Origin: Candidatus Zipacnadia bacterium
Lineage (GTDB): Bacteria; Armatimonadota; Zipacnadia; Zipacnadales; Zipacnadaceae
NCBI GenBank assembly: GCA_029821195.1
Contig: JALGTU010000043.1
Location: 1-33,969 of the forward strand
DNA: 33,969 bases
Direction: 5' to 3'
Positions 6,837 to 23,067 of this stretch are shown piece by piece (the stretch's first letter is position 1; every line of letters begins with the position of its first letter). The position numbers and the translations under genes are program-made. The notes beneath the pieces were generated by a model. It saw only the letters and a list, made by a program, of their open reading frames with translations, had not been told where the DNA came from and made no database searches.

Positions 6837-6860
6837 AGCCCGTTACTGACCTCCCAAAAT

Positions 6861-8018
6861 CTAGAACTTCATCGGATTTATCGGTTTACCATATTTGCGT
6901 ACGCCAAAATGCAGATGGGGTCCGGTGGACCAGCCAGTGCTCCCCACATAGGCGATGACCTGCCCCCGCTTGACCGTCTGGCCTTTGCTGACTGCAAACC
7001 GCGAGCAGTGCGCGTACATCGTCGAGATGCCGCTGCCGTGGTCAATCAGCACCGTCTTGCCGTAAACGCCCTTCCAGCCCACATAAACCACCAGCCCTTT
7101 GTCACCGGCGTGAATGGGCGTGCCACTGGGACAAGCCAGGTCTACGCCGTCGTGGAAGCGGCGCGTGTGCACAATCGGGTGGATGCGCCAGCCGTACCGG
7201 CTTGATATCCGATAGCTGCTCCAGATGGGGCACTTGAACGTGCCGCCCCATTTTCCTGAGTAGCGTGTCCCGCCGCCCCGTTGGAGTCGAGCGATCATCT
7301 GCTCAATCGCTCGCGACTCCTGCTCCATCTGCGCCAGCAGCCGCTCGGCTTCGCCGCGGTTCTCGTTAGTCCTTTTCAGCTCGGCATCGGCTGCGGCCCG
7401 CCGCGTCCTCACGACGTCCCGCTGCTGGATTATCTTAGCCCGCAGGTCTTCCTGCCGGGCTTTTTTGACCTCGAGTTCCGCCTTCTGGCGCTCGAAGGCC
7501 TGCTTCTCGCTGACCAGCGTGGCCAGCAGATTCTCGTCCCGCCGCGCGATACGCCGCGTGAACTCGGCCCGGTTAGCGAAGTCCTCGAACGACGTAGCCT
7601 GGAAGATCACTTCGAGGTACGACGGCTCCCCGGAGCGGTAGACCGCCAGCAGGCGCTGCTGCATCTCCTCCTGGCACTTTTCCAACCGCGCTTTCGTCTC
7701 CGCCAGTTCCTGCTCAGTCGCGGCGATCTCCTCCTTGGTCTGGCGGAGTTGTGCCTCGGTCCGGCGCAACGATGCCTGCGCCTCGTCCAACTGCCGCTGC
7801 GCGGCGACCAGCCGGCTGCGCGCGGCACGCTGCTCGCCTTTGATCGTGCGCAGCTCTTTCTTGACCTTCTTCTCCCGCCACAGGTAACTGCTCAGCTTCT
7901 TTTTCAGATCGCCGAGCCTGCTGGCCTCCGCCGCAGGCAGGGCTACGCTGCCCAGCAGCACCGCACAGATGCTGGCAGCCACTATTCCCGTCAAACCGTT
8001 TCGATACATTAGGCGCAT
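6861..8018 (-). CDS. EnvC/PcsB-like coiled-coil M23 peptidase (copy 2)
   Basis: A 385-residue secreted murein hydrolase or activator. A signal peptide ends near residue 30 (VALPAAEA). A long heptad-rich coiled coil covers about 35-245, then comes an M23 (LytM) domain of about 275-385. All zinc-site residues are present: H289 and D293 in FHDGVD, H337 in YAHC, and H368/H370 in GPHLHFG, so this copy should be catalytically competent, unlike E. coli EnvC, which has lost its ligands. Coiled coil plus LytM next to ftsEX is the mark of FtsX-controlled septal hydrolase factors. It is a close paralogue of the gene just upstream; the hinge segment containing YRSGEPSYLEVIFQAT is identical. ATG at 8018 is taken as the start, with AGGAAAG upstream; a second ATG at 8009 is possible. 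Confidence 0.9.
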   Translation of the reverse strand: MRLMYRNGLTGIVAASICAVLLGSVALPAAEASRLGDLKKKLSSYLWREKKVKKELRTIKGEQRAARSRLVAAQRQLDEAQASLRRTEAQLRQTKEEIAATEQELAETKARLEKCQEEMQQRLLAVYRSGEPSYLEVIFQATSFEDFANRAEFTRRIARRDENLLATLVSEKQAFERQKAELEVKKARQEDLRAKIIQQRDVVRTRRAAADAELKRTNENRGEAERLLAQMEQESRAIEQMIARLQRGGGTRYSGKWGGTFKCPIWSSYRISSRYGWRIHPIVHTRRFHDGVDLACPSGTPIHAGDKGLVVYVGWKGVYGKTVLIDHGSGISTMYAHCSRFAVSKGQTVKRGQVIAYVGSTGWSTGPHLHFGVRKYGKPINPMKF

Positions 8019-8106
8019 GCTATATCAGCGACTTTCCTGGGCCATCTTATGTTCAATCAGCTATCTACGCACTAGGCGGCCTGGCCCACAGTTGGGCAAC
8101 TCGACC

Positions 8107-9267
8107 TTAGAAGCGAACGAATCTCTCAGGATTGAGCCATTTCCCGTTCTGGCAGACACCGAAATGCAGATGCGGGCCGGTTGACCACGCGCCGGTCCCG
8201 CCCAGGTAGCCGATGACCTGCCCGGCCTTTACCACCTGACCCTTTTTCACCGCATACTTCGACAAATGGGCATAAAGCGTTACCATCCCGCTACCGTGGT
8301 CAATTCTGACCATCTTGCCGGCCGTGCGACTCCACCCCGCGAAAATCACTGCGCCGTCGGCCGCTGCTTTGATCGGCGTGCCCACCGGCAAGCGCGCGAT
8401 ATCTATCCCGCAGTGCATCTTGCGTATCTTGAGTGTCGGATGTATGCGCCAGCCGAACCGGCTGGTCACTACCCCACCCGAGACCGGCCGGAGCATCCCG
8501 CCCTGGAAACTCCCCTGGTACTGCCCCCCGCGCCGACTCAGCGCCGCCAGTTCCCGGGCGATTCGGTCGTATTCCCGCTCCATCAGCGCCAACTGGCGCT
8601 CGGCCTCGGCCCGGTCCTCGGTGATACTGCGCAGCGCCTGCTCGCTTTCCGCCTTGCGGGTCGCTATGACGTCGTGATGCTCGCGCACCTGTGCTTCCAG
8701 GACCGTCTGCTGGGCTTTTCTGCCTTCCAGTTCCGCTTTTTCGCGCGCGACTGCTTGCTTTTCGCTGACCAGCTTCGCCAACAGACTCTCGTCACGTTGG
8801 GCAATGCGTCGGGTAAACTCCGCCCGATTTGCAAACTCCTCAAACGTCGTGGCCTGAAAGATTACTTCCAGGTAACTCGGCTCGCCCGAACGGTAGACCG
8901 TAAGGAGTCGCTCCCACATCTGGTCCTGTTGCTCCGCCAGACGCACCTTCGCCTCGGCCAGCCTACGCTCGGCTTCGGCTACTTGCTTCTTGGTCTGGGC
9001 GAGCTGCGCCTGCACCTGGGCCAATTCCCTCTCCGCCCGCTCCAGGTCCTGCTGTGCCGCGGTAAGCTTCCCGCGGGCCTCGCGCTGCTCGGTCTTTATT
9101 TCGCGGAGGTCTTTGCGGACCGTTTGCTGGCGGGACAGATATGTACCCAGCTTTCGCTTGAGCGCATCCAGCCGGCCAGCCGCCGCCGGTGCCGGGAATA
9201 TTCCCACCAGCAAGAGCACCGCGACCGCTGATATGGCGGCAGCTTGCCTGTTTGGCCCTGAGCGCAC
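8107..9267 (-). CDS. EnvC/PcsB-like coiled-coil M23 peptidase (copy 1)
   Basis: A 386-residue paralogue of the following gene with the same architecture: signal peptide (about 1-30, ending PAPAAAG), coiled coil (about 32-245) and M23 domain (about 262-386). Its zinc residues are also intact: H285 and D289 in MHCGID, H334 in YAHL, H366/H368 in GPHLHFG. It differs from its twin by a longer linker and by GTGAWSTG in place of STGWSTG before the last motif. The start is a GTG at 9267 with GGAGG 8 bases upstream. It lies 77 bp after ftsX and 88 bp before copy 2. The expected role is septal peptidoglycan cleavage gated by FtsEX at the cell division site. Two intact tandem copies imply a duplication, perhaps with divided roles. 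Confidence 0.9.
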   Translation of the reverse strand: MRSGPNRQAAAISAVAVLLLVGIFPAPAAAGRLDALKRKLGTYLSRQQTVRKDLREIKTEQREARGKLTAAQQDLERAERELAQVQAQLAQTKKQVAEAERRLAEAKVRLAEQQDQMWERLLTVYRSGEPSYLEVIFQATTFEEFANRAEFTRRIAQRDESLLAKLVSEKQAVAREKAELEGRKAQQTVLEAQVREHHDVIATRKAESEQALRSITEDRAEAERQLALMEREYDRIARELAALSRRGGQYQGSFQGGMLRPVSGGVVTSRFGWRIHPTLKIRKMHCGIDIARLPVGTPIKAAADGAVIFAGWSRTAGKMVRIDHGSGMVTLYAHLSKYAVKKGQVVKAGQVIGYLGGTGAWSTGPHLHFGVCQNGKWLNPERFVRF

Positions 9268-9295
9268 CCCGAAAGCCTCCGCTTGCCTAGTGTCT

Positions 9296-9311
9296 ATAGT
9301 ACTAATACTAT
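9296..9311. promoter_or_regulatory. AT-rich palindrome between ftsX and the M23 gene
   Basis: ATAGTA and TACTAT form a perfect 6 bp inverted repeat around CTAA, in an unusually AT-rich island of this GC-rich sequence, about 30 bp upstream of the GTG start of the first M23 gene. It could be an operator or part of an internal promoter; no convincing -35/-10 pair was found. Confidence 0.3.
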
Positions 9312-9344
9312 GTACAATTGCCCGACTGCCCTAACCTGAACGAC

Positions 9345-10229
9345 TCAGGCCCGGCGTAGGTATCGGTGCAGACTCATCAGACTGCCGGCAGCACCAAAGA
9401 GCACGCCGCAGAGCACCACCGCGAGGCCAAACAGCACCAGCGCCTGGGTCGAGTATATCAAATCAACAAACTGCAAGTTCTGGGCCACGTACTGCTCGCA
9501 ATAACTGTACATCGGCAGCAGTAGGGCCGCCGCCAGCGCGCCACCCGCCAGCCCGTCCAGGACACCTTCGATGACGAAGGGGACGCGGATGAACCAACCG
9601 GTCGCCCCCACCAGTTGCATTATGCGAATCTCCTGGCGGCGGGCGTAAATGGTCAGGCGGATAGTCGTGCTGACGATCATCAGCATGGCCATCCCCAGCA
9701 CTATCCCCATAACGATCCCGGAAATCCTGATCCCGCGTGCCAGGGTCAGCAGCTTATCAGTCACCTGCTTGGCCCAGCGTGCCATCGCCACACCCTCGAT
9801 GGCCTCACTCTCCTGTGCTACCGCCTCGATGTCCTGCGGATCACTGGGCTTGACGTGGAAACTATCAGGTAGGACATTCACCCCTAACAGATCAGGGTCT
9901 TTTTCCAGAACGTCCAACCCCAGCTTCGCCATCATCTGCTTGAAGGCCTGCTCTTTGTCCACAAACCTGACGTCCTCCACTCGCGGATCGTCCCAGAGGG
10001 CCTGTTCGACCGCGTTCTTGTCGGCATCGTTAGCGAGTTCGACGATGATTACCGCCTTCTGGGTCTGCAAGGCCGCCATATGCTCAAGGTTAACACCAGC
10101 GAGCACCAGCCCGCCCAGGATCAGCAGGGCCACGGCGATATTCGATATTGCCGCCAGCGTCACCAGCCCGTTGCGAACTGCCGCTTCCCAGCCCTCGTGC
10201 AGGAGGAACTCAATGGTATTAAGGCGCAT
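9345..10229 (-). CDS. ftsX: cell division ABC transporter permease FtsX
   Basis: The membrane subunit of FtsEX, which passes ATP-driven conformational changes from the septum to periplasmic hydrolase regulators. The 294-residue protein has the FtsX pattern: one N-terminal membrane helix (about 22-45), a large extracytoplasmic loop (about 48-165) that contacts EnvC/PcsB-type partners, then three helices (about 170-192, 219-241 and 265-288). The cytoplasmic segment RRQEIRIMQLVGATGWFIRVPFVIEG is characteristic. I chose ATG 10229: its GGGGGCAGG site is inside ftsE, and it overlaps the ftsE stop by 11 bp (ATGCGCCTTAA). The open frame continues farther upstream, but those residues do not look like FtsX. 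It is followed by the two M23 genes, its probable effectors. Confidence 0.93.
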   Translation of the reverse strand: MRLNTIEFLLHEGWEAAVRNGLVTLAAISNIAVALLILGGLVLAGVNLEHMAALQTQKAVIIVELANDADKNAVEQALWDDPRVEDVRFVDKEQAFKQMMAKLGLDVLEKDPDLLGVNVLPDSFHVKPSDPQDIEAVAQESEAIEGVAMARWAKQVTDKLLTLARGIRISGIVMGIVLGMAMLMIVSTTIRLTIYARRQEIRIMQLVGATGWFIRVPFVIEGVLDGLAGGALAAALLLPMYSYCEQYVAQNLQFVDLIYSTQALVLFGLAVVLCGVLFGAAGSLMSLHRYLRRA

Positions 10230-10905
10230 CGTACCTGCCCCCTTGCTTGTCGTCCCGGACGATAACGCCCTGCACCAATTCAATTACGCGGCACTTGCTC
10301 CGGTTGACTATTTCCCGGTCGTGAGTAGCTACTACGACAGTCGTGTTCTGCCCGCAGATACTGCGCAGGAGCTGGATGATATCCCAGGAGGCCACCGGAT
10401 CCAGGTTGCCGGTCGGCTCATCGGCGAGGAGTATGGGCGGACCCTTGACCAGGGCGCGGGCGATGCTGACCCGCTGCTGTTCGCCGGCGGAAAGCTGGTG
10501 TGGGAAGGCCTCCGCCTTATCGGCCAGACCGACCAGTTCCAGGCTGATGGGCACCTTGCGGTACTTCTCGCGGCGGCTGGCGCCGACGACGTCCAGCGCG
10601 AAGCCGACGTTTTCCCACACAGTCTTCTGGGGCAGCAGCCGGAAATCCTGAAAGACTATTCCCACTTTGCGACGCAGGTACGGGACCCGCTGCGGCGGCA
10701 GCTTGGCTACGTCCTGGCCGTCTACAATCACTTTCCCGGCAGTGGGAACGATGTCCCGGTATATCAGGCCCAACAGTGTGGACTTGCCGCTTCCCGAGTG
10801 ACCAGTGCCAAAAGCAAACTCGCCGCGTTCAATATGCAGGTCAACACCGCTGAGCGCCTGCGTGCCGTCAGGATAGACCATACTTACCGATTGTAGATGT
10901 ATCAT
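10219..10905 (-). CDS. ftsE: cell division ATP-binding protein FtsE
   Basis: The ATPase of FtsEX, 228 residues. Walker A is GHSGSGKST (35-43), the Q-loop is VFQD (84-87), the ABC signature is LSAGEQQRV (138-146; LSGGEQQRV is commoner) and Walker B is ILLADEP (158-164). [21 protein letters not shown] at the N-terminus and WDIIQLL near 175 are FtsE-like. The residues before Walker A (FAFGTGHSG) differ from the usual FVFLVGPSG. Its ATG at 10905 is preceded by AGGATGG, and a strong promoter lies 76-104 bp upstream. First gene of the division cluster, translationally coupled to ftsX. Confidence 0.93.
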
Positions 10906-11039: not shown

Positions 11040-11068
11040 TTGACAAAAGCGGCCGTCTAGGCTAAACT
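11040..11068 (+). promoter_or_regulatory. sigma70-type promoter for pilM operon
   Basis: A perfect TTGACA (11040-11045) is followed after 17 bp by TAAACT (11063-11068, 4 of 6 to consensus). The start would fall near 11075, giving a leader of about 50 bases before pilM. It is divergent from the ftsE promoter, with the two -35 boxes only about 30 bp apart. Confidence 0.75.
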
Positions 11069-11123: not shown

Positions 11124-12233
11124 ATGGCACGCGGTGCTACCAACGCACTGGGGCTGGACATTGGGGGCAACGCAATCAAGGCGGTACAACTGCACAAGGG
11201 CAGGGAAGGCCTGCGCGTGGTGGGCATTCCTGCCAGCGTACCGACACCGGCCAGCGGCGTAGCTGGAGGGGTAGTAGTTGACGGCGAGGCGATCGCCGAT
11301 GCGCTGGCGGAGATGGTACGCACCCACGGTTTTACCACCAAAGATGTGATCGCCTCGGTGGGCGGCAGCACTTCAGTGACGGTTCGCGTGGCCAGTATGC
11401 CCCAGATGAGCGGGCGCGAACTGCGCGATGCCATGGACTACGAACTCGACCGCCAGGTCCCCTTCCCCATTGACCAGGTCATTTACGACTACCAGGTTAT
11501 TGATTTTGCTGCCGGTGACGAGGCCGGGGAGATGAACGTGCTGCTGGCCGCGGCGCAGGAGGACATGGTTAATGCCCACGTGGCCGCGATTACCGACGCC
11601 CATCTGCAGCCGATCCACATTGACGTCGAACCTCTGGCGCTGAGCCGGGCGCTGGTCAATGTTAGCACGAATGGCTACAATGAACAGACCGTGGCGATCG
11701 CCCATATCGGGGCCACCCAGACCGAGATAAGCGTGATCCGTCAGGGTCTGCTGGCCTTCGTGCGCGCCATACCCACTGCCGGCGAGTCGTTGACGGCGGC
11801 CATTCGCCAGGAGATCACCGCCGACGATACCCAAGCGGAGCAGGCCAAGCGCCAGTTCGCTGATGCGCGCCAGTTGTCCGGCCCGGCGCCGGGTGAATCC
11901 GAGGAGGCTCATCGCACCCGCGAGGCTATCCAGCAGGTAATCTCCGAGCCACTGTTCGAGGTGATCACCGAGTTGGGCCGCACGCTGGACTTCTATCGGC
12001 GGCAGCATCCGGGTGAAGATGTAGCCCTCGTACTCTTATCGGGCGGTTCGGCGGTCATTCCCGGCCTGGCTGAACTGGTCGGGACTGAAACCGGAGTGAA
12101 GGCCGAGGTGGCCAATCCTTATCAATACTTGATTTATGATACCGAAAGTGTCAGCGAGGCTTACCTGCGAGATATCGGTCCGGCAACAACGATAGCCGCT
12201 GGTTTGGCGATGCGGGATATGCTACCGGAGTAG
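11124..12233 (+). CDS. pilM: type IV pilus assembly protein PilM
   Basis: A 369-residue actin-like (FtsA/MreB fold) cytoplasmic protein that binds the N-terminal tail of PilN and links the pilus alignment complex to the cytoplasm. The first nucleotide-binding motif LGLDIGGNAIKAVQL (9-23) and the later SGGSAVIPGL (306-315) are clear, as are ELRDAMDYELDRQVPFPIDQVIYDYQV and the LDFYRRQHP segment. AAGGAG lies 6 bases before the ATG. It heads a rightward run of six pilus genes behind a good promoter. Motor ATPases, pilins, PilC and prepilin peptidase are not in this window. Confidence 0.93.
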   Translation: MARGATNALGLDIGGNAIKAVQLHKGREGLRVVGIPASVPTPASGVAGGVVVDGEAIADALAEMVRTHGFTTKDVIASVGGSTSVTVRVASMPQMSGRELRDAMDYELDRQVPFPIDQVIYDYQVIDFAAGDEAGEMNVLLAAAQEDMVNAHVAAITDAHLQPIHIDVEPLALSRALVNVSTNGYNEQTVAIAHIGATQTEISVIRQGLLAFVRAIPTAGESLTAAIRQEITADDTQAEQAKRQFADARQLSGPAPGESEEAHRTREAIQQVISEPLFEVITELGRTLDFYRRQHPGEDVALVLLSGGSAVIPGLAELVGTETGVKAEVANPYQYLIYDTESVSEAYLRDIGPATTIAAGLAMRDMLPE

Positions 12234-12249: not shown

Positions 12250-13074
12250 GTGCTAAAGATTGACCTACTACCGAGACATTTTGCGATCGCGCGCTTGAAC
12301 AAGAAGCTGATCGTGGTGGTGGTAATTGCCCTGATAGCGGTGGCGGGCTTCTGGCTGTTCCGGGTCAACACTCTCAAGGCCACTATAGCCGAGACCCAAG
12401 CAAAGTTGGACGAAGTCAAGGTTATCGCTGACAAGGTGCGGGGTCTGGAGCAGGAAGCCTCCCAGAAAGAAAGTGAGCTGGCGCCGATTCAGGAAAAGGT
12501 GGACTTTGTCGCTGCGGCCGACGAGAGCGGCGGCCAGTTCTGGGACCGCTTCCACGCCATCAACAAGTACATCTCCAACGAGGCCCAGATGTCAGACATC
12601 ACCATCAGCGACAGCGCGGTCGAGTTTAACGTGACGATACGCGGGACGCTGGGCGTGGCCCGCTTCCTGCTTAACCTGCTGCGTTGTCCCGACATCTCTG
12701 ACATTACCTACTCGGGGATTTCCAGCGGCGCAGGGGTCATTGCGGCGGAGACCGGTGTTACCCCCAGCCCAGGGATGATGGGCGATGAGATGATGATGGA
12801 TGAGATGATGATGGAGGGAGAGATGATGCCGCCGGAGATGGGGGCCCCGATGCCCTCCATGCAGCCGACTACGACGGTGGTCGGCGCGGAGCCGGGCAGT
12901 CCCCAGGAGATCATCCCCCTGCGCATATCGGCGACGCTTATCGAGCCGACATCAGTACCCGTACCGCCGGGCATGCCCGTGCGCGGGGCCGGGATGATGG
13001 GGATGGAGGAAGAGATGATGGCAGAGCCGGGCATGGAGGAAGGTTTAACGCCCGAGGAAGAGATGGAAATGTGA
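12250..13074 (+). CDS. pilN: PilN-like type IV pilus protein with Met-rich tail
   Basis: A 274-residue bitopic inner-membrane protein. The short cytoplasmic tail LKIDLLPRHFAIAR is the PilM-binding motif (INLLP in relatives), followed by a membrane helix (about 19-38), a coiled coil (about 40-85) and a ferredoxin-like domain (about 95-160). Unusual for PilN, a low-complexity insert at 175-204 has 13 Met in 29 residues mixed with Asp/Glu, and the C-terminus (242-274) has 9 more Met with Glu and Gly. A further beta segment (IIPLRISATLIEP) lies between them. The DNA of the first tract is a near-repeat of GATGATG around 12775-12845. GTG start at 12250 with GAGGAG upstream, 16 bp after pilM. PilN pairs with PilO to align the motor with the secretin. 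Confidence 0.85.
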   Translation: MLKIDLLPRHFAIARLNKKLIVVVVIALIAVAGFWLFRVNTLKATIAETQAKLDEVKVIADKVRGLEQEASQKESELAPIQEKVDFVAAADESGGQFWDRFHAINKYISNEAQMSDITISDSAVEFNVTIRGTLGVARFLLNLLRCPDISDITYSGISSGAGVIAAETGVTPSPGMMGDEMMMDEMMMEGEMMPPEMGAPMPSMQPTTTVVGAEPGSPQEIIPLRISATLIEPTSVPVPPGMPVRGAGMMGMEEEMMAEPGMEEGLTPEEEMEM

Positions 13075-13172: not shown

Positions 13173-13892
13173 ATGGGTAAGATACCGCCGTTAGCCATAT
13201 GCGGAATTGCACTCGTCCTGGTTATCGGGATAAGCCTGGGCGCGCAGTTCAAGATGATCAAGCCTGCCCAGGCCCAGCTCAATGAGCTGCAGGACCAACT
13301 GGCGACGGAGCAGGCCAAGGCTGACGAGATGGCGGCGACCAAGCAGAGGCTGGCCGATGTCCAGACACGATGGGAGGCAGCCCAGGCCCAGCTCGCCAAG
13401 TTGCGCAAGGAGCGAGGCATTCAGTGCTCTTTCGCCCATCCCCTGCCGGCCCTATTTGCGTCACTGTGGCCGGAGCTGCGCATCAACTTGCCCAGGGTAA
13501 TCGAAGAGTGGGTAGAAGAGCAGGGCGTAGTTATCACCTCGGGAGCCAGTCTGGCGGCGCCGCCGTCCACTCCGCCCCAACCGACGGGCGACTTTATGCA
13601 GGTGGGAAACATAACTCTGCAAATAGAGGGCTCGCTCACCGACATCGAGCGGTTCTACCGGGCCCTGCCCACCTTTCCCCGCGTAGCGACCATAGGTGGC
13701 TTGTCATTGGCGGGCGAAGGTGATAAAATAACCGCAACGGTACCGATGACTATCTATCTGCTCGTCGAGGTGCCACCTGAGGCCGCCGCGGCAGTTGCAG
13801 CGCCGGGGGAACCGGGGATGGAGCCGCCCCCAGAGGCGGGCGGGGAAATGCCGGGAGGGCCGGGCGGAGGTATGGAAGAGGAGCCAATGTAG
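13173..13892 (+). CDS. pilO: PilO-like type IV pilus protein with Gly/Met/Glu tail
   Basis: A 239-residue bitopic protein: membrane helix (about 7-25), coiled coil (about 32-80), then a ferredoxin-like domain (about 105-200) containing MQVGNITLQIEGSLTDIERFYRALPTFPRV, typical of PilO. PilO forms a heterodimer with PilN in the periplasm. The last 39 residues are low complexity, rich in Gly, Pro, Glu and Met (GEPGMEPPPEAGGEMPGG...), echoing the tail of PilN. The ATG at 13173 follows a GGGGAAG site, after a 98 bp gap. The next gene starts 12 bp later. Confidence 0.85.
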   Translation: MGKIPPLAICGIALVLVIGISLGAQFKMIKPAQAQLNELQDQLATEQAKADEMAATKQRLADVQTRWEAAQAQLAKLRKERGIQCSFAHPLPALFASLWPELRINLPRVIEEWVEEQGVVITSGASLAAPPSTPPQPTGDFMQVGNITLQIEGSLTDIERFYRALPTFPRVATIGGLSLAGEGDKITATVPMTIYLLVEVPPEAAAAVAAPGEPGMEPPPEAGGEMPGGPGGGMEEEPM

Positions 13893-13904: not shown

Positions 13905-14543
13905 GTGCACACCCAACGTATAGCCAAGTTTATGATGGCAGGCGGAGCCGGAGCGTTGACTCTGGCCATTACCGTGCTGTTGCTGTTCGTACTGCCGGCG
14001 ACTAATCCCGGCAGCATATCCTCCCAGGCTCAACCCGAACCGAGCGAGGAGATGGGGGAGCCCGCGCCCATGCCCGAAGGGGAGGAGATGGGCGGCGAAA
14101 TGATGGGCGAGGCGGCCCCGGCGCCCAGTGACTTTACAGGCGAACCGTTCGAGGCGTGGCGACCTAATCCCTTCCTGGCCGGCGCCGGGGTAGAGATCGA
14201 GTCAATTGAGGGTATGACCACGACAGCTACCAGGTATGGCCCGGACTGGTACCAGTTGCCGATTGCAGCGCGCCTCAGCATGGCCGCGTGCCAGCGGGGT
14301 CCGGAACTGGCGGCGGAACCGGCACCCAAGCCGGAAGAAGAGAAGTTCATGCGCATAAGCAGTATCCTGTGGACGGCCGGCAAGCCGCTGGCCATCTACG
14401 AGACAGCCGATGGCAAGACCGGCAGCGTCCAGCCCGGCGATATTGTGGACAACTGGATGGTCGAGCAGATCGGGCAGGATTACGCCATGATGCGCAATGT
14501 CATAAGCGGCGAGTATCGCCGCGTCCCCTTGAAGAGCAAATAG
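13905..14543 (+). CDS. pilP: PilP-like periplasmic linker protein
   Basis: A 212-residue protein with one membrane helix (about 12-31), a disordered linker (about 42-75) again rich in Met, Glu, Pro and Ala, an RPNPF box at 86-90 (PilP and GspC relatives have NPF there), and a C-terminal small beta domain (about 147-208, RISSILWTAGKPLAIYET...VQPGDIVDNWMVEQIG) like the HR domain of PilP/GspC. That domain docks on the secretin N-domains. Typical PilP is a lipoprotein; here a membrane helix without lipobox cysteine is seen, which is closer to GspC. GTG start with GGGAGAAG upstream. Identification rests on pattern and position between pilO and the secretin genes. Confidence 0.7.
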   Translation: MHTQRIAKFMMAGGAGALTLAITVLLLFVLPATNPGSISSQAQPEPSEEMGEPAPMPEGEEMGGEMMGEAAPAPSDFTGEPFEAWRPNPFLAGAGVEIESIEGMTTTATRYGPDWYQLPIAARLSMAACQRGPELAAEPAPKPEEEKFMRISSILWTAGKPLAIYETADGKTGSVQPGDIVDNWMVEQIGQDYAMMRNVISGEYRRVPLKSK

Positions 14544-14628
14544 AACAACTAGCCGGCTGCTCTCGTCTGAGAATCATGGAGTATTGGTGGCAGATTCAGT
14601 CTCAGGGCAACAACAGGAGGCAAATATT

Positions 14629-15402
14629 ATGCGAAGGGCACAGATCAGCTGGTTGCTATTGGCAGTAGTCGTATCGGTGGTGCTGGTACTGGGCACGGTC
14701 ACCCGCGGGATGGCCCAGGAGCAACACCGCTTCTCGGTGCAGTGGAAAGACATCACCGTGGCCGATGCCCTCATGGCCCTGCGGCGGCAGTTCGGTATCC
14801 AATACGTCCTGCCCAGCGACCTGGGCAAAAAGCGAATAGACGCTAACCTCACCAATGCCACGCCGGTGGAGGCGATGCGGCAGATTCTCAGCGCCGCGCA
14901 GCTGACCGCCGTCAACGAGAACGGGGTCTGGCACATTCGGGCAATGGCCCAGGCGCCGGCGGGCGGGCGGACTTACCGGCCAACTGCAACGACACGACCC
15001 GCTACTGCGCCCACGGCAGTGGCACCGCCTACACCTTTCCGCGTGGGACCGCAGCCGGTCAACGTCGGAGGCGCGTACGGTACAGCCCAGCCCAGCTATG
15101 GCGCTACGCCGGGTGCTACGGCGACGGGGATGACCGGATTCGGCCAGGGCATGCAGCAGTATTCGCCCGAAGACTTCGTGTTCCGCATTATCCCGCTCAA
15201 GTATATTGATCCGTATACGGTCCTCGACATGTTCGGGGGCCAAGCGGTAGGCGGCGAAGGTGGCGGTGGTGGCAGCCGGGGCAGCCGGGGCGGCTACGGG
15301 GGCCGCGGGCGGGATAGCTATGACAGCTACGACCGGGATCGCTATGACCGCGACCGGGATCGCTATGACCGCGACCGGGATCGCTATGACCGCGACGACT
15401 GA
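14629..15402 (+). CDS. short secretin N-domain (STN) protein with RYDRD repeats
   Basis: A 257-residue exported protein: signal or anchor (about 7-29, ending GMAQ), an STN / secretin-N0-like domain (34-105), a Pro/Thr/Ala linker, then the first strand-helix of a second secretin N-domain (FVFRIIPLKYIDPYTVLDMFGG, 183-204). It does not complete that domain; instead it runs into Gly/Arg-rich sequence and ends with three copies of a seven-residue RDRYDRD unit. The secretin barrel domain is absent. pilQ follows 112 bp later with its own start and its own STN domain, so this is a separate gene. The ATG at 14629 has AGGAGG 8 bases upstream. It could be a secretin partner or a degenerate secretin paralogue that gained a repeat tail. 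Function unknown. Confidence 0.75.
   Translation: MRRAQISWLLLAVVVSVVLVLGTVTRGMAQEQHRFSVQWKDITVADALMALRRQFGIQYVLPSDLGKKRIDANLTNATPVEAMRQILSAAQLTAVNENGVWHIRAMAQAPAGGRTYRPTATTRPATAPTAVAPPTPFRVGPQPVNVGGAYGTAQPSYGATPGATATGMTGFGQGMQQYSPEDFVFRIIPLKYIDPYTVLDMFGGQAVGGEGGGGGSRGSRGGYGGRGRDSYDSYDRDRYDRDRDRYDRDRDRYDRDD
15310..15396 (+). repeat. 21 bp tandem repeat inside CDS
   Basis: Three identical 21 bp units lie at 15334-15354, 15355-15375 and 15376-15396, each encoding the heptapeptide RDRYDRD. A degenerate copy (15310-15330) precedes them. The unit is a multiple of three, so copy-number change would lengthen or shorten the charged Asp/Arg/Tyr tail without a frameshift. Confidence 0.9.
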
Positions 15403-15514: not shown

Positions 15515-17203
15515 ATGTTGAAGCCAAAGAGGAGCATAGCAGCAACACTGGTAGTTCTATTCGCAGCAGTGATCGCCTGTGCAGCGCCCCACGCAATTGG
15601 CCCGATCGGGGCCGACGAGCTCACAGCAGATGAGGGCTCCCAGCTTATCAACATTGATATTAAGGCGGGCCCCATTGCCGAAGTGCTGCGCGGCCTGGCC
15701 CGTTTCGGCGACGTTGACATCGTCATCAACGAGGGTGTCACCGGCACAATCCCCAGCATCAATCTGCGCGACAAGACGATTGAGGAAGCCCTCTACTTGA
15801 TTGCGCAAACCAACGGCTACGTGGTCTACAAGGTCCCGCCCCATACCTACATTGTCTCGCCGCCCGGAATACCCGGACCGGGTACCGGGCGACTATTGGA
15901 TCCTTGGAGCACTACCGGGGAATCAACCCCTGCACCGCGCTCCGCTGATACGGCCACACCAGCCCCGGTGGTCAGCCCCACTTTACCGCCGCTGCTTGCG
16001 ACGCAGATTGAACCCTCGACGGCCGTCCGGGGCTCAGTCAAAGGCGGCGAGCAGTGGGTTCGTGACCGCGTTGACCTGGCCTATTGCGATGCCGCGGAAG
16101 TAGCCCGGGCGTTTGGTGGCGGTGTGCTGGGCAGCCGGACCGCGCGGCGCCGACCGGGTCCCTACGTGCGATCAAGTCTGGAGCGCGCCCGTCTGGAGGC
16201 CGAAGCGCTCCCCTTTGCCGGGGATCTGCGTTCACCTGGTGCACCGTTTGTAGGAGGCGGATGGGGGCAAGCATATCTGGGTGAGCCGGAGGCCCGACTC
16301 GGTCAGGGCCTAGGCGAGTTCCGGGGTGACCAGCGCGGGGGCGCCTACCAGGGAGCGGGTGGCGTGGGCGGCGGAGTGACGCTGCCGATGGGCATGGAGC
16401 CGCCGCTGGCGATTCTCGAGCAGAATGTACTGCTGGTTCACGGTACTCAAGAAGCTATTGACCAGTTCCGCGAAATACTGGCCTTCTTTGACAAGCCGCC
16501 GAAACAGGTAGAGATTGAGGCCCGCTTCGTCGAGGTGGAAACGACCAAAGACAAGGCTTTCGGCATTGACTGGTTTGTGGCCAACGGCTCGGCCGAGTTC
16601 TTCAATCTGGGCTTTGCGCCCGGTCAGGGCATCAACGTGGCTCGCTTCCGCCGCGGCCGCTTCGAGGCGGAGCTGCGCACCCTACTCAACGAGGGCCGCG
16701 CTCAGGTCATCAACGCCCCCCGGGTCACCACCCAGAATAATCTGGAAGCAGAGGTTGACTTCTCCACCGAGATTCCGTACTTCTATGCGACGATAACCTA
16801 CAACGAGTTCGGACAGCGGCAGGTAGACTACGAAACCGAGACGGTGTCGGTCTCACAATCGCTGTCCGTTACTCCGCGAATTCTTGAAGATGACACCGTG
16901 GTACTGGACCTGGAGCCGGAGATTGACGACCAGGTCGGCACGGTCATCGGCCCCAGCGGCGAGGTGCTGCCGATTGTCAGCACCCAGTCAGTCTACACGC
17001 GCGTCCGGGTTGCCGACGGCGATACGCTGGTCATCGGCGGCTTCACCCGGACCAACGAGACGTTCAACATCCGCAAGACCCCGCTGCTGCACAAGTTACC
17101 GATAATCGGGAACCTGTTCCGCTCGCGAGTCGTCGCTGACCGGCAGTCGGAACTGTTGATATTCGTTACCCCACGCATTCTGCGGGAGATACCTGAGCAA
17201 TAG
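15515..17203 (+). CDS. pilQ: type IV pilus secretin PilQ
   Basis: A 562-residue outer-membrane secretin through which the pilus leaves the cell. Order: signal peptide (about 1-25), STN/N0 domain (46-116), a Pro/Thr/Ala linker, a secretin N-domain (186-328) split by a Gly/Arg-rich insertion (about 201-290), and the secretin barrel domain (331-557) with VEIEARFVEV, NAPRVTTQNN and the signature PLLHKLPIIGNLFRS (523-537), ending LLIFVTPRIL. The signal region contains VIAC (19-22), which fits a lipobox, so it may be a lipoprotein, though cleavage after APHA is also possible. It has fewer N-domains than many PilQ. GGGAGG precedes the ATG. No pilotin gene is seen. A GspD-like role is possible, but the pilM-pilP context favours PilQ. 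Confidence 0.92.
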   Translation: MLKPKRSIAATLVVLFAAVIACAAPHAIGPIGADELTADEGSQLINIDIKAGPIAEVLRGLARFGDVDIVINEGVTGTIPSINLRDKTIEEALYLIAQTNGYVVYKVPPHTYIVSPPGIPGPGTGRLLDPWSTTGESTPAPRSADTATPAPVVSPTLPPLLATQIEPSTAVRGSVKGGEQWVRDRVDLAYCDAAEVARAFGGGVLGSRTARRRPGPYVRSSLERARLEAEALPFAGDLRSPGAPFVGGGWGQAYLGEPEARLGQGLGEFRGDQRGGAYQGAGGVGGGVTLPMGMEPPLAILEQNVLLVHGTQEAIDQFREILAFFDKPPKQVEIEARFVEVETTKDKAFGIDWFVANGSAEFFNLGFAPGQGINVARFRRGRFEAELRTLLNEGRAQVINAPRVTTQNNLEAEVDFSTEIPYFYATITYNEFGQRQVDYETETVSVSQSLSVTPRILEDDTVVLDLEPEIDDQVGTVIGPSGEVLPIVSTQSVYTRVRVADGDTLVIGGFTRTNETFNIRKTPLLHKLPIIGNLFRSRVVADRQSELLIFVTPRILREIPEQ

Positions 17204-17288: not shown

Positions 17289-18497
17289 ATGACCCCTACA
17301 CTCGACTTTCGCACTGCCGGGGAGTCGCACGGTCGCCAGCTCACCGCGATCATCATCGGCCTGCCCGCCGGCTTGGCCCTGCAAGTTACCGCCCTGGACC
17401 GCGAGTTGGCTCGCCGCCAGTGTGGTTACGGCCGGGGTAAGCGCATGCAGATAGAAAGCGACCAGGCCGCGATCACCAGCGGCGTGCGCCACGGCCAGAC
17501 GCTCGGCACACCCGTGGCGCTGAGCATCGAGAACCGGGACTGGCCTAACTGGGAGCAGGAGATGTCGGTGGCCCCGCCCGCTCCCGGGCTCACCAGCGAG
17601 CGCGCAGTGACTGTCCCCCGGCCCGGTCACGCCGACCTGGCCGGCGCGGCCAAGTTCGGACAGACCGATATGCGCAATGTGCTGGAGCGCGCCAGCGCCC
17701 GCGAGACGGCGGCCCGGGTGGCCGTTGGCGCTATCTGCCGGCAACTGCTTGCCGACTTTGGCATCTCCGTGCACAGTTGCGTGATTAGTATCGGGGGCAT
17801 CGCGGCGGCGCCCCCCCAGAGACCGGACGACGAATTCTGGGCGCAGGTCGAAGCAAGCGACGTCCGCTGCAGCGACGCGGCAGCAGCCCAACGGATGCGC
17901 GCGGCGATTGACCAGGCCCACAAGCGCGGCGACACCCTCGGAGGCGAGTTTGAGGTCCACGTGACCGGAGTACTGCCCGGGCTGGGCTCGTATGCAACAT
18001 GGCAGGAACGACTCGATGCGCGCCTGGCCGCAGCAGTTATGAGCATTCCGGCCATCAAGAGCGTGGAGATTGGGCTGGGTAAGGGCGTGGCTGACCGGCC
18101 CGGCTCGCAGGTGCACGATCCCATCCAGGCCAATGCCCCCGGTGACCACTGGCCCTTCACTCGCCCGACTAATAACGCCGGCGGGATCGAGGGCGGAGTT
18201 TCCAACGGTGAGCCAATAGTAGTACGCGCGGCGATGAAGCCGATCCCCACGCTGACCCAGCCGCTGCCATCGGTCGAGCTTCATAGCCTACAGCCCAGTC
18301 CAGCTCATGCCGAACGCTCGGATGTCTGCGCGGTACCCGCGGCCTCAGTCGTGGGCGAGGCGATGGTCGCCTTCGTTGTGGCGCAGGCTATGCGCGAGAA
18401 GTTCGGCGGTGATAGCCTGGCGGATATGCAGACGGCTTTTCGCGCGTACCGGCAGCGCCTCGGAGAACTGGGCCAGCCGGGTGCGGAGGGGGTGTAG
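17289..18497 (+). CDS. aroC: chorismate synthase
   Basis: The last enzyme of the shikimate pathway, converting EPSP to chorismate using reduced FMN. The 402-residue protein has the family's landmarks: TAGESHGRQLTAIIIGLPAGL at the N-terminus, RRQCGYGRGKRMQIESD, RPGHADLAGAAKFG, RASARETAARVAVGAI and a Thr-Arg-Pro-Thr-Asn-Asn-Ala-Gly-Gly-Ile-Glu-Gly segment near residue 295 with the conserved GGI-GG. Length is normal. The ATG at 17289 follows AAGGAAG. The aroK-aroB fusion starts 3 bp after its stop, so the two are co-translated. The region upstream carries pilQ and a strong hairpin. Confidence 0.97.
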   Translation: MTPTLDFRTAGESHGRQLTAIIIGLPAGLALQVTALDRELARRQCGYGRGKRMQIESDQAAITSGVRHGQTLGTPVALSIENRDWPNWEQEMSVAPPAPGLTSERAVTVPRPGHADLAGAAKFGQTDMRNVLERASARETAARVAVGAICRQLLADFGISVHSCVISIGGIAAAPPQRPDDEFWAQVEASDVRCSDAAAAQRMRAAIDQAHKRGDTLGGEFEVHVTGVLPGLGSYATWQERLDARLAAAVMSIPAIKSVEIGLGKGVADRPGSQVHDPIQANAPGDHWPFTRPTNNAGGIEGGVSNGEPIVVRAAMKPIPTLTQPLPSVELHSLQPSPAHAERSDVCAVPAASVVGEAMVAFVVAQAMREKFGGDSLADMQTAFRAYRQRLGELGQPGAEGV

Positions 18498-18500
18498 GCG

Positions 18501-20141
18501 ATGGCGCACAGGTTTCGCCCAGCGGCGAGTGCCGTGGTCCTGGCCGGTTTTATGGGCACCGGCAAGAGCAGCGTGGCCAGCCTGCTGGCCCAGCGCTGGG
18601 ACCTGAGGAACGTGGACACCGACACGCTGATCGAAGAGCGCGCGGGCACCAGCATTGCGGAGATATTCGCCAGCCAGGGTGAGCAGCACTTCCGCAACCT
18701 GGAGACGGAAATCCTCACCGAGCTGTCCGCTGAGCGGGGCGTGGTCATCAGCACCGGCGGCGGGATGCTGCTGCGCCCGGAGAACGTCGAGCTGCTGCGC
18801 CGGATGGGGCCGATTGTGTGCCTGCACGCGTCGGCGGAGACAATCCTGGCGCGGACCACTGATAGTGACGAGCGCCCCCTCCTGAACAAGCCCGATCCCG
18901 CCACGGAGGTGCGCCGCCTGCTGGCCCAACGCGAGGAGGTGTACACCCGGGCCGACTACCATATTATCACTGATGAGCTTACTCCCGAGCAGGTCACCGA
19001 GCGCGTCGCCGAGATCATCGCGGCGGATCCGCGCGGGGTCTTCCTGACGAGCACGCGGGTCGAGTTACCCGTAGCTGTGGGTGAAGACAGCTACAGCATT
19101 CACATTGACCAGGGCCTGCTGGCGGCGATCGGCGCGATTATGCCCCCGGAAGAATCCGGTCAGCAGGCTGCCGTCATCACTGACGACAATCTGGCCGAAC
19201 TCTACGCGCCAGCAGTAGTCGCGAGCCTCGGCGACGTCGGCTGGGAGGCAGGCACGTTCACAGTGCCCGCCGGGGAGGGCAGCAAGACGCTGGCCACCGC
19301 CGGCCAACTCTGCGAGCAGTTAGCCGAGGCCGGCCTGGACCGCAGCTCGGTGATCTTCGCGCTTGGTGGCGGGATGGTCGGCGACCTGGCGGGGTTCGTT
19401 GCTGCCGTCTATATGCGAGGGATACAGTTCGTGCAGGTGCCCACTTCGCTGCTGGCGCAGGTGGATGCCAGCGTGGGCGGCAAGGTGGCAGTGGACCTGC
19501 CCCGCGCCAAGAACCTAGTGGGAGCTTTTCACCAGCCCCGGGCCGTGGTCATTGACACCCGCACGCTGGATACGCTTCCCGACGACCAGTTCCGGGCAGG
19601 TCTGGCCGAGGTCATCAAGCACGCAGCCATCGCCGATGCGGAGATGTTTGCCTACCTCGAAACCAACCTCGAGCGGATCATGAACCGTGACCAGCTGGCC
19701 TTGAAGTACCTGCTGGCGCGCAACTGCCAGATCAAGGCGGAGGTGGTCAGTGCCGACCCGCACGAGCAGGGCTGGCGGGCGGTGCTCAACTTCGGCCATA
19801 CGCTCGGCCACGGGCTGGAACGCGCTGCCGCCCAGTGGCAACTTTCGCACGGGGAGGCAGTCGCCGCAGGGATGATCGCGGAAAGCCAGATCGCAGTCGA
19901 GAAGGGGCTGGCCGAGCCGAGTGTGGTCGAGCGGCTCATCCGGCTGGTAGAACAGGCCGGGCTGCAGCCGGATTTGAGTGAGGTGGACTTTGACGGGGCC
20001 TGGGCTGCACTGTCTTCTGACAAGAAGATCCGGCAGGGGCGGCTGAAGCTGCCGGTGGTCCCGCAGATTGGGGAGGTTATCCTGACTGAGCAAATCCAGC
20101 TCACCGACCTGCATCAGGCGCTGGAGCGGCTGCGGGCGTGA
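18501..20141 (+). CDS. aroKB: shikimate kinase / 3-dehydroquinate synthase fusion
   Basis: A 546-residue two-enzyme protein. Residues about 10-175 are shikimate kinase: P-loop GFMGTGKSSV (16-25), VDTDTLIEERAGTSIAEIF, FRNLETE and STGGGMLL. Residues about 185-545 are 3-dehydroquinate synthase: EGSKTLAT, ALGGGMVGDLAGFVAA, PTSLLAQVDASVGGKVAVD and zinc ligands E370, H433 (NFGHTLGH) and H450 (LSHGEAV), with the 63- and 17-residue spacing of the B. subtilis enzyme. The two catalyse steps 5 and 2 of the shikimate pathway. Both halves look intact and there is no frameshift. Such AroK-AroB fusions are known in several phyla. The gene starts 3 bp after aroC, with a GGAGGG site inside aroC. Confidence 0.95.
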   Translation: MAHRFRPAASAVVLAGFMGTGKSSVASLLAQRWDLRNVDTDTLIEERAGTSIAEIFASQGEQHFRNLETEILTELSAERGVVISTGGGMLLRPENVELLRRMGPIVCLHASAETILARTTDSDERPLLNKPDPATEVRRLLAQREEVYTRADYHIITDELTPEQVTERVAEIIAADPRGVFLTSTRVELPVAVGEDSYSIHIDQGLLAAIGAIMPPEESGQQAAVITDDNLAELYAPAVVASLGDVGWEAGTFTVPAGEGSKTLATAGQLCEQLAEAGLDRSSVIFALGGGMVGDLAGFVAAVYMRGIQFVQVPTSLLAQVDASVGGKVAVDLPRAKNLVGAFHQPRAVVIDTRTLDTLPDDQFRAGLAEVIKHAAIADAEMFAYLETNLERIMNRDQLALKYLLARNCQIKAEVVSADPHEQGWRAVLNFGHTLGHGLERAAAQWQLSHGEAVAAGMIAESQIAVEKGLAEPSVVERLIRLVEQAGLQPDLSEVDFDGAWAALSSDKKIRQGRLKLPVVPQIGEVILTEQIQLTDLHQALERLRA

Positions 20142-20257: not shown

Positions 20258-21043
20258 ATGCGGCGCAAGCTGTCAATACGCAATACGGAGTTATGGGTCT
20301 GGCTGCGCGGCTGCGCCAGCGTTCTGGTGGTGTTGGCGGTCGCGGCCCTGGTCTTCGTGATAGTCGCGGTTCAGGGGCTGGGCACCAGCGCCCATGAGGC
20401 GCTGGTGCCTGATGTGGTGGGCGAGCCAGAGGCCGACGCTATGGCGACGCTGGCCAAAGCCGAGCTGGAGGGGCACGTCACCGCCCACAACTATCACGAA
20501 GAGGTGCCCTACGGACACGTAATCAGCACCGAACCTCCGGCGCTTATGCGGGTCCGGGCCGGGCGCCGGGTGCAGATGGTTGTCAGCAGCGGGCCCCGCA
20601 AGATCAAGACACCAAGAGTCATCGAACTGGCCTCGGAAGACGCGCAGAGGATTCTGGAAAAAGCAGGGCTGACGGTTGGCCGGATCACGCGCCGGCACAG
20701 CGACCAACCGAGCGACCGTGTACTCAGCCAGAACCCCAAGCCGGGGGAAAAGCTGCGCCGGGGCGAAGCAATAGACCTGGTGGTGAGCGGCGGCTCGGAT
20801 TTCGGGCAGTTTGAGGACGCCGATGGCCAGACCGTGCTGCTACGCCGGGTCCGGATTGTCGTTCCCGCCGGCCGCACCGTCCAGCGGGTGCGAGTCACCC
20901 TCAACTACCGGCACGGCGTGAAGACGCTTTACGACCGTATTCACCGTAAGGGCGACGAAATTCTGGTGGATTTCCAGGCGTCCACCGGTGACCGCGTGCA
21001 CGTGTACATTGACGAGAAACTGGCCGAGCGAAAACGCCTGTAG
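20258..21043 (+). CDS. membrane-anchored protein with two PASTA domains
   Basis: A 261-residue protein: short cytoplasmic N-terminus, one membrane helix (about 20-38), PASTA domain 1 (about 48-113, VPDVVGEPEADAMATLAKAEL...), PASTA domain 2 (about 115-179, TPRVIELASEDAQRILEKAGL...) and a C-terminal beta-rich region of about 80 residues. PASTA domains bind peptidoglycan fragments, usually on Ser/Thr kinases or penicillin-binding proteins. No kinase or transpeptidase domain is present, so any role is as a wall sensor or scaffold. GGGAGAG precedes the ATG. It lies 116 bp after aroKB and 45 bp before the sigma factor gene, on the same strand. Confidence 0.85.
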   Translation: MRRKLSIRNTELWVWLRGCASVLVVLAVAALVFVIVAVQGLGTSAHEALVPDVVGEPEADAMATLAKAELEGHVTAHNYHEEVPYGHVISTEPPALMRVRAGRRVQMVVSSGPRKIKTPRVIELASEDAQRILEKAGLTVGRITRRHSDQPSDRVLSQNPKPGEKLRRGEAIDLVVSGGSDFGQFEDADGQTVLLRRVRIVVPAGRTVQRVRVTLNYRHGVKTLYDRIHRKGDEILVDFQASTGDRVHVYIDEKLAERKRL

Positions 21044-21088: not shown

Positions 21089-21670
21089 TTGCCGCCTAAC
21101 GAGGCCGAGATAATCCGTCAGTGCCAGACAGGCGACAGCAGCGGTTTCGACCTGCTGGTCCGTGAGCACTATACTCGCGTCTACAACACCGCCTTCCGCA
21201 TGCTGGGAGATGCCGACGGGGCCGCTGATGCCACCCAGACAGCATTTGTCCGGGCCTTCTCTTCGCTGCACGGCTTTCGCGGCGATTCGTCGTTCTCCAC
21301 CTGGTTGTATCGCATCGTCATCAATGTCTGCCTGGATGAGTTGCGCGATGCGCCCAGGCAGCCCGCCAGCCTGACGCTCGTTACCGACGACGGCGAAGAA
21401 CTCCAGGAGCGCACCATTCCCGACGAGCAAGCCGATCCCGCCCGGGAGGCCGCCCGCCACGAGCGCCAGGAGATAGTCCACCAGGCCCTCCAGCGCCTGG
21501 CACCCGAGCAGCGGGTTGTGCTGGTGCTCTATGACCTGAACGGTTTCTCTTACCAGGAGGTCGCCACTACATTGAATCTGCCGCTGGGCACCGTCAAGTC
21601 GCGGCTCAACCGCGCGAGAGGTGCCCTAAAGGAAGAAATCAAGCCCCATCTGGAACTTTTCGAACCGTAG
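21089..21670 (+). CDS. ECF (sigma70-family) RNA polymerase sigma factor
   Basis: A 193-residue extracytoplasmic-function sigma factor. Region 2 (about 20-88) contains YNTAFRMLGDADGAADATQTAFVRAF and FSTWLYRIVINVCLDELR, and region 4 (about 128-182) contains LAPEQRVVLVLYDLNGFSYQEVATTLNLPLGTVKSRLNRAR. There is no region 1.1 or 3, as usual for the class (SigW/RpoE-like). The proposed start is TTG at 21089 with GAGGCAGGA just upstream. The next gene encodes a zinc-finger anti-sigma factor, which presumably holds it inactive at the membrane until a signal arrives. Its regulon is unknown; neighbouring envelope genes are natural candidates. Confidence 0.93.
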   Translation: MPPNEAEIIRQCQTGDSSGFDLLVREHYTRVYNTAFRMLGDADGAADATQTAFVRAFSSLHGFRGDSSFSTWLYRIVINVCLDELRDAPRQPASLTLVTDDGEELQERTIPDEQADPAREAARHERQEIVHQALQRLAPEQRVVLVLYDLNGFSYQEVATTLNLPLGTVKSRLNRARGALKEEIKPHLELFEP

Positions 21671-21732: not shown

Positions 21733-23067
21733 ATGATGCGTTGCACCAACTGCCGGGATAACTTCACCGACTATCTGGAGGACAGCTTGCCCCCGCCGCA
21801 GCGGGAACAGATGGCCGCCCACCTGCGCGAGTGCACAGATTGCGCGGCGGAGCTGGCGGCGCTGCGCCGGACCGTCGCGGCGCTGCATTCTCTGCCGACG
21901 GTCAGCCCGCCCGAGGACCTGCTGGCCCGCATCAACCGCGCGGTAGACGCCCAGACGACGACACCGCGGTTCCGAGTTTCCTGGCAGCGCATTGGTACGG
22001 TAGCGGCAGCAGCCACCCTCCTGGTGGGCTTCTGGGCGGTCTTTTCCCATCAGCGGCCAGGCACAATGACTGAGGGGATCAGCCCGGCGCTACGCTTCGA
22101 GCACGCCGTGAAAGAAGCAGATGTGGCGGAGCAAGCGCCGTCCACTACGGCAGAAGAGCCGGCGGAACTCGAGGAGGCTGCCGCTCCTGCCCCAGAGGTA
22201 ATCCGCGAGATAGCGCCGCCGGCAGCGGTTCGCCGTGACCGGAACGCGACCCGTGGCGTCATTCGCGAAGTGCAGCCCGAAGAACAACCACCATCACCTA
22301 AGCCGGTATACGTCGAGGAGCGGAGGCACAGTGAGAGCACGAACGGTGCTGGGCTGGATGTGCCCCCCCGTGGCGGCGAATTGGATCTGGGAATGGGGGA
22401 GGAGGGGCGCGATGCCGCCGGCATGACCGTGGAGCGACATATGCTGACGCTGGGTAGCGAACCCGCCGCACCGCCGGTCGCCAAGGCCCAGGCTGGCGCC
22501 AGGATGGTAATCACGCCGCCGCCGCTGGAAGAGCGCATAGTGGGTGAGACCGTTCAGGTGCAGATGGCGATCCAGCCCGAGGCCGACGTCGAACAGGCCC
22601 AGGTCCGGGTGGAGACCAAGGGGAGCCTCCGGCTGGCCGAGGACAAGCCAGTCATCTACCAGGGGCCGCTTTCAATGCAGGACAGCAAGCGGCTGGCCTT
22701 TGGTATTATCGCCGCAGAAACCGGGGCGCAGGAGCTGCGCGTGGACCTGACTTCCGAGTTGCCGGGGGTATGTGCCTCCACGCCAGTAACGATTCCGGGC
22801 TTCGAGTTGCCACCACAGCACTTGACCACCCAGGTTTTCCACGGCACGCCCCTCGATCAGGCCATCCGGGCCGTTGCCCAGGAGGCCAAGTTGAAGGTAA
22901 GTATCGGTGAGCGCGTCGGGCAGGAGGCGGTCTCCGCCGACTTCAGCGCCGGTGTGCCGGGCCAGGCCGCACTGCGCATCCTCGCCGAGAGCGCCGACTG
23001 CAGCCTGCAGGCTCAGGGCGACACCTACACTGTGTACCGACCGGCTCCCGACAACGATGCCCAGTGA
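21733..23067 (+). CDS. zinc-finger anti-sigma factor with C-terminal STN domain
   Basis: A 444-residue transmembrane protein. The N-terminus is a zf-HC2/ZAS anti-sigma domain with C4, C7 and the H30-x3-C34-x2-C37 zinc site. After a membrane helix (about 86-104) comes a long Pro/Glu/Ala-rich linker (about 110-250), a predicted beta-sandwich region (about 258-357) and a C-terminal domain (about 364-436) that aligns by eye with the STN domains of the two secretin-family genes in this window (FHGTPLDQAIRAVAQEAKLKVS versus the PilQ region at 50-71). STN domains normally occur on secretins and TonB-dependent receptors. Carrying one on the anti-sigma factor itself is unusual to my knowledge. Two adjacent ATGs (21733, 21736) follow a GGTGAGAG site. 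Its stop overlaps birA by 11 bp. Confidence 0.85.
   Translation: MMRCTNCRDNFTDYLEDSLPPPQREQMAAHLRECTDCAAELAALRRTVAALHSLPTVSPPEDLLARINRAVDAQTTTPRFRVSWQRIGTVAAAATLLVGFWAVFSHQRPGTMTEGISPALRFEHAVKEADVAEQAPSTTAEEPAELEEAAAPAPEVIREIAPPAAVRRDRNATRGVIREVQPEEQPPSPKPVYVEERRHSESTNGAGLDVPPRGGELDLGMGEEGRDAAGMTVERHMLTLGSEPAAPPVAKAQAGARMVITPPPLEERIVGETVQVQMAIQPEADVEQAQVRVETKGSLRLAEDKPVIYQGPLSMQDSKRLAFGIIAAETGAQELRVDLTSELPGVCASTPVTIPGFELPPQHLTTQVFHGTPLDQAIRAVAQEAKLKVSIGERVGQEAVSADFSAGVPGQAALRILAESADCSLQAQGDTYTVYRPAPDNDAQ

Follow-up and report, generated by a model that had tools for sequence, protein, structure and literature searches.

A zinc-finger anti-sigma factor with a C-terminal STN domain, linked to the pilQ operon in a class of Armatimonadota

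The pilus operon and its regulatory end

The window analysed here (33,969 nucleotides, the whole of contig C205 from a draft genome of 3.0 Mb in 237 contigs, 95% complete) carries on its forward strand a pilus cluster that runs into an ECF sigma factor gene and an anti-sigma factor gene. A motif search places a sigma-70-type promoter (TTGACA-17-TAAACT, 11040-11068), of a type conserved across the class, upstream of pilM (11124-12233; PilM_2, E 5e-57). This gene is followed by one for a protein in the pilN position (12250-13074, from position and synteny), by pilO (13173-13892; PilO, E 1.3e-5) and by a gene in the PilP position (13905-14543), whose product has no Pfam match and is PilP/GspC-like by eye and by synteny. 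Then come a short exported STN protein of 272 residues with a low-complexity tail (14584-15402; STN, E 9e-4) and the secretin gene pilQ (15515-17203; Secretin, E 1.7e-40; STN, E 5.6e-5), with its STN/N0 domain at residues ~43-116. Further along are aroC for chorismate synthase (17289-18497, by domain search), an aroKB fusion of shikimate kinase and 3-dehydroquinate synthase (18501-20141, from motifs read by eye and synteny) and the gene of a single-TM protein with two PASTA domains (20258-21043; PASTA, E 1.5e-24, and synteny), directly upstream of the ECF sigma factor gene (21089-21670; Sigma70_r2, E 9.5e-19; Sigma70_r4_2, E 1e-17). The anti-sigma gene (21733-23067) starts 62 bases past the latter, which is taken as cognate from this adjacency, and the gaps between genes from pilM through the anti-sigma factor are of 3 to 116 bases.

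The short STN protein resembles a secretin truncated behind N0 and the first part of N1; its tail is R/D/Y-rich in the window and G-rich in relatives, and many pilus clusters of Armatimonadota encode such a protein before pilQ. The PASTA gene differs between families in its N-terminal region (L053, 9522-11237; L036, 9850-11400; L034, 5266-6816; window, 20258-21043), and in one genus an extra gene lies between it and the ECF gene. In genome G041 its product is a homologue of PASTA protein kinases (Pkinase, E 1.8e-22); it has HGGLS in place of the expected HRDLK and is, from these residues, probably a pseudokinase. In other families the PASTA protein has a long N-terminal region that gives no Pfam kinase match, and the family of the window is without that region. 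On the other side of the promoter and divergent from the pilus operon, positions 5487-10905 hold FtsE/FtsX-type ABC genes, two M23/PcsB-type peptidases and an S41/CtpB-type periplasmic protease (5487-6836, reverse strand; Peptidase_S41, E 7e-49), which by gene content is a cell-wall remodelling cluster.

The initial annotation proposed looking for a motif of the ECF sigma factor upstream of pilM and pilQ. A sigma-70-like site, scoring 9 to 11 of 12, lies upstream of pilM in all ten loci of the class that extend far enough upstream (L036, L043, L046, L048, L050, L051, L052, L053, L056 and L061) and in L065, and almost no such site is found upstream of the PASTA and ecf genes. Matches to an ECF-type promoter are scattered, with none conserved near pilM, PASTA or ecf, which is a weak negative for a sigma factor with no defined motif to search by. 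The simplest reading of these sequences is that a housekeeping promoter drives pilM through the anti-sigma gene as a single long operon, and the absent ECF motif, weak as this indication is, does not favour control of the pil genes by the sigma factor itself.

An anti-sigma factor with an STN/N0 domain

The product of 21733-23067 is a protein of 444 residues whose parts were delimited from the reading frame, domain searches and hydropathy. Its N-terminus is a zf-HC2/ZAS zinc-binding anti-sigma domain (residues 4-38, 21742-21846; PF13490, E 1e-6, 29.2 bits vs a curated Pfam cut-off of 22.2), with zinc ligands at C4, C7 and H30-x3-C34-x2-C37, exactly the residues that had been read by eye at the outset. 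The motif H-x3-C-x2-C with upstream cysteines is what we take to be the mark of the ZAS family, such as RsrA. A single transmembrane helix follows at residues ~87-105 (21991-22047), where hydropathy over 19 residues reaches its maximum of 1.86, in agreement with the helix first proposed. Composition and the boundary of the profile match set off a long linker in the periplasm (22048-22494) in which P, A, E, G, S and T abound; it is disordered and of low complexity, with 154 residues up to the profile match, 59% of them being one of these six amino acids. Its length in relatives, where it can be delimited, goes from ~125 to ~306 residues, variation that, as far as sequence tells, is more like that of a tether than of a rigid rod. 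The beta-rich region suspected from the start is predicted as a sandwich (residues ~255-357, 22495-22803; pLDDT ~90), which Foldseek matches to Ig-like or macroglobulin-type domains; in the Pfam search of the window sequence it has no named family and no FecR match.

The last part of the protein is residues ~362-439 (22816-23049), and the STN domain that had been claimed there, with boundaries (364-436) right to within a few residues, stands on several kinds of evidence. Pfam STN on the single window sequence gives an E of only 0.02-0.03, below the gathering cut-off and too weak for a call, so profiles were used instead. An order-wide profile of 22 relatives, searched against the PDB, has PilQ N domains as all of its first seven matches (best E 5.5e-6). 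In the reverse direction, a profile of 76 STN domains from Armatimonadota PilQ and from the small STN protein before pilQ, with the anti-sigma factors and the window sequences excluded, matches residues 366-439 of the window anti-sigma factor at E 9e-11; of 3000 shuffled controls it matches none. There is some dependence between the two tests, as the secretin sequences were gathered using the anti-sigma STN profile; most of them, on the other hand, are from proteins recognised as PilQ by other regions or by operon position.

Structure prediction agrees with the profiles. Modelled alone from five sequences, the domain (pLDDT 81.7) shows the order b-a-b-b-a-b-b, which is that of STN. In a fold search with the two-domain model of beta and STN domains the Ig-like matches dominated, and the STN model was then searched alone; Foldseek returned Neisseria PilQ N0 first (E 3.2e-4), with LspD, PupA, XcpQ and PupR (6ovk) among the top seven and the putative anti-sigma factor BDI_1681 (4m0h) also among the best matches. 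By profile and by predicted structure, then, the C-terminal domain has the STN/N0 fold, and the lack of such a fold, which the initial annotation had named as fatal to its reading, did not occur. A tree of STN domains puts those of the anti-sigma factors on long branches, in a group of their own apart from PilQ and with weak support; it rests on too few columns to place the origin of the fused domain, and within that limit nothing in it points to recent copying from PilQ.

An STN domain on an anti-sigma factor is not new in itself. The background first given, that in Fec-type signalling STN is on the TonB-dependent receptor, is incomplete, as the anti-sigma factors PupR, for which a C-terminal STN was described in 2020 (PMC7186176), and FoxR, for which it was used in 2024 (PMC11637429), already have one. 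The factor of the window is like them a single-pass anti-sigma factor of an ECF sigma factor, with a periplasmic beta domain and then a C-terminal STN (PMC7186176, PMC11637429). It differs in that its N-terminus is a ZAS zinc finger and not a FecR-type anti-sigma domain, its beta domain is Ig-like and not of the FecR/CJM fold, and it has a long disordered linker, linkage to pilQ and no TonB transducer in the genus. With RsrA-like ZAS factors it shares the H-x3-C-x2-C motif, the upstream cysteines and a gene that adjoins the ECF gene, whereas its sensor ends in a secretin-type domain and the other zf-HC2 proteins of these genomes are without STN. With the N0 domains of PilQ and GspD its STN shares the fold and a detectable similarity of sequence; unlike them, it is the C-terminus of an inner-membrane regulator, without the N1 or barrel domains of a secretin. 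What is already known is thus the C-terminal STN on an anti-sigma factor, and what is different here is the zinc-finger N-terminus, the Ig-like domain, a genus that lacks TonB receptors and a position in the pilQ operon that is stably kept. In the open-access literature we found no paper joining a zinc-finger anti-sigma factor with STN, none linking an ECF factor with Armatimonadetes, and none linking an ECF/anti-sigma pair with the pilQ operon.

Conserved linkage and candidate partners

When 291 Armatimonadota genomes were searched with a profile built on the beta and STN domains, 35 had a match at E <= 1e-12, and 33 of these belong to the same order or class. One of the two outliers, G102, shares both the architecture and the gene order (L095), with a C-terminus above the Pfam cut-off for GspD N0; the other, G197, has a small anti-sigma-like protein adjoining an ECF gene and no recognised zinc finger. 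There is one match per genome, save for G017 with two partial matches at contig ends. Neighbourhoods, annotated with profiles built from the window proteins, show at 28 loci of nine families (L095, L097 and L098 included) the order pilM-N-O-P-STN protein-pilQ-(aroC)-aroKB-PASTA-ECF-ZAS anti-sigma on one strand, as far as the contigs reach. The STN is visible at 23 of the 28, the anti-sigma gene being cut by a contig end at the other five, and the anti-sigma gene adjoins the ECF gene wherever the contig extends that far. No exception to the pilQ linkage is met where the contig is long enough to show pilQ, the loci that fall outside this comparison starting or ending between aroKB and the anti-sigma gene. 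The link of the anti-sigma factor with the pilQ operon, first suggested by a single window, thus extends far past it. In other Armatimonadota classes there is a pilus cluster, often with the small STN protein, but the ECF/anti-sigma pair was not seen beside it. In one such class, genome G082 (L087) has a PASTA gene 3' of aroKB, so that this gene may be the older element.

Conserved as it is, the linkage alone is no proof of shared function, because the aro genes share the operon. The ECF/anti-sigma pair could be kept behind aroKB just for the level of its expression, with an STN that contacts another secretin (T2SS-like GspD) or an unrelated protein. Besides the aro genes, such hitch-hiking would fit the four secretin matches of the own genome, any other of which could be the partner, and a membership that is partly fluid, with aroC missing from some families and the genes downstream of the anti-sigma factor varying between birA, a deacetylase and a VIT/vWA gene. 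The regulatory module, however, stays while all these come and go, and although zf-HC2 matches number 3-23 per genome across the group (seven in the own genome), STN is found among these zinc-finger proteins on the pil-linked one only. We consider such hitch-hiking quite unlikely. The VIT/vWA-domain protein lies directly 3' of the anti-sigma gene in L052 (13092-15857), L043 (12633-14906) and L053 (13518-15962), of families f3, f7 and f8, and in G042 it holds an inserted STN-like stretch.

Which partner the STN has is a question that the presence of secretins by itself does not settle. The initial annotation would have been in difficulty had the anti-sigma factor turned up in genomes with neither a secretin nor a TonB-type receptor, and none was found; secretins are present in 101 of 101 relatives, and since they are universal the agreement is uninformative, for which reason their co-occurrence was dropped as evidence on the partner. 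The distribution of TonB-dependent receptors tells more. No barrel (PF00593) and no plug (PF07715) is matched in the own genome or in the genus, and a plug-domain search in ten genomes of the family gave no match, so that such a receptor was rejected as the partner in this genus. Signalling of the Fec type, in which the STN would dock on a TonB-dependent transducer, could appeal to the known FecR-type factors that have STN (PMC7186176, PMC11637429) and to the near-equal scores of the FecR_C and STN models on the relatives (11 and 10 members of the 22-relative alignment, respectively). Against it stand the missing receptors, the pilus linkage and the Pfam result for the window anti-sigma factor, which is zf-HC2 and no FecR domain; it is very improbable in general and close to refuted for the own genus. 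Because TonB-dependent receptors are absent from the genus, PilQ or the adjacent 272-residue STN protein is the best candidate partner.

Other observations suggest that the STN may have partners besides PilQ. In genus g3 the orthologue (G013, L060, 282-1475) keeps the ZAS domain, the helix, the linker and the beta domain, and a natural stop comes before the STN, in a genus where pilus linkage is still seen (G011, L061). Other classes have small exported STN proteins next to ECF or anti-sigma genes at 6 of 11 sampled non-pilus loci (L075, L077, L080, L088, L089 and L090, as opposed to L081, L083, L086, L091 and L092), and two further such loci, L073 and L096, were found by other routes. With ~15 to 38 matches to sigma-70 region 2 per genome in those classes, adjacency within a few kilobases by chance is estimated at a few per cent. 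The pairing of STN with ECF/anti-sigma genes would, from these neighbourhoods, seem to be a general theme in Armatimonadota. Several of the separate STN proteins at non-pilus loci have zinc-ribbon-like C-termini (a double zinc ribbon match in L073), and at two of these loci, L088 and L096, an anti-sigma-like membrane protein with no recognised zinc finger bears the STN as a fused domain.

The eight non-pilus loci (L073, L075, L077, L080, L088, L089, L090 and L096) also lend weight to a different view, that STN is a general module of periplasmic interaction or self-association and that the cassette of PASTA, ECF and ZAS::STN senses peptidoglycan or the state of the envelope, not PilQ; the place of the cassette in the pilus operon would then reflect that sensor and pilus work at common sites in the envelope. 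The gene before the ECF gene is for a PASTA protein, in G041 one with a detected kinase domain, and the divergent neighbours are the FtsEX-type ABC genes, the two M23/PcsB peptidases and the S41 protease, all of which would suit such a sensor. Yet every fused STN of this class whose surroundings can be assessed is linked to pilQ, and pairing with STN/N0 domains, such as those encoded in the same operon, is what the STN family is best known for. We hold envelope sensing to be unlikely, if deserving of some weight.

A proposed secretin-docking circuit and its meaning

Our preferred reading remains that the STN of the anti-sigma factor meets a secretin-type domain encoded in its own operon. The ZAS domain is established, for its family, as an inhibitor of ECF sigma factors in the cytoplasm, and the zinc finger of the window protein would keep the adjacent ECF sigma factor inactive. 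One helix would span the inner membrane, the flexible linker of ~150 residues would cross the periplasm, and the Ig-like domain would present the STN, which could dock on PilQ, the type IV pilus secretin, at its N0/STN layer, or else on the short STN protein whose gene comes before pilQ. Such docking would work as in PupR and FoxR, where the C-terminal STN of the anti-sigma factor meets its STN counterpart on a TonB-dependent transducer and this pairing shields the anti-sigma factor from a proteolysis that otherwise goes through proteases of the Prc/CtpA type and then of the RseP type (PMC7186176, PMC11637429). A change in the secretin, be it unassembled, misassembled or displaced, would then expose the anti-sigma factor to a periplasmic protease or shield it from one, and cleavage of the RseP type would next release the sigma factor. 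An M50 site-2 protease is encoded in the own genome, and the S41 protease of the window, ~15 kb from the anti-sigma gene, is a possible processing enzyme by analogy with Prc/CtpA in the processing of FoxR (PMC11637429). It is probable that sensor and machine are transcribed as one unit from a sigma-70-type promoter, and the regulon would probably be other than the pil genes themselves.

Of the STN-based tie between anti-sigma factor and secretin first proposed for this locus, the STN itself, the linkage to pilQ and the lack of a TonB receptor in the genus hold; the docking to PilQ, by analogy with PupR and FoxR, and the surveillance are what we infer from them, as are the direction of the signal, the proteolysis and the regulon. 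To the secretin-docking mechanism as a whole, with PilQ or the small STN protein as partner and proteolytic release of the sigma factor, we give an even chance. Somewhat short of that we would place the broader proposal of a circuit, running through the whole class, in which the ECF factor monitors the assembly of the pilus secretin by STN-STN contact between the ZAS anti-sigma factor and the N0 ring of PilQ or the small STN partner, a TonB-free secretin counterpart of Fec signalling and part of a phylum-wide habit of joining STN with ECF/anti-sigma genes.

Cell-surface signalling through STN is described in the open-access literature only with TonB-dependent transducers. That a whole class keeps, in its pilQ operon, an anti-sigma factor with a secretin N0 domain suggests that a secretin, too, can be watched through such an interaction. 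The reading predicts testable pairs of proteins in a little-studied phylum. If it is true, the anti-sigma factor may report the state of the pilus pore, or of its surroundings, to the cell, and would offer a direct handle on how cells sense the assembly of a large outer-membrane machine.
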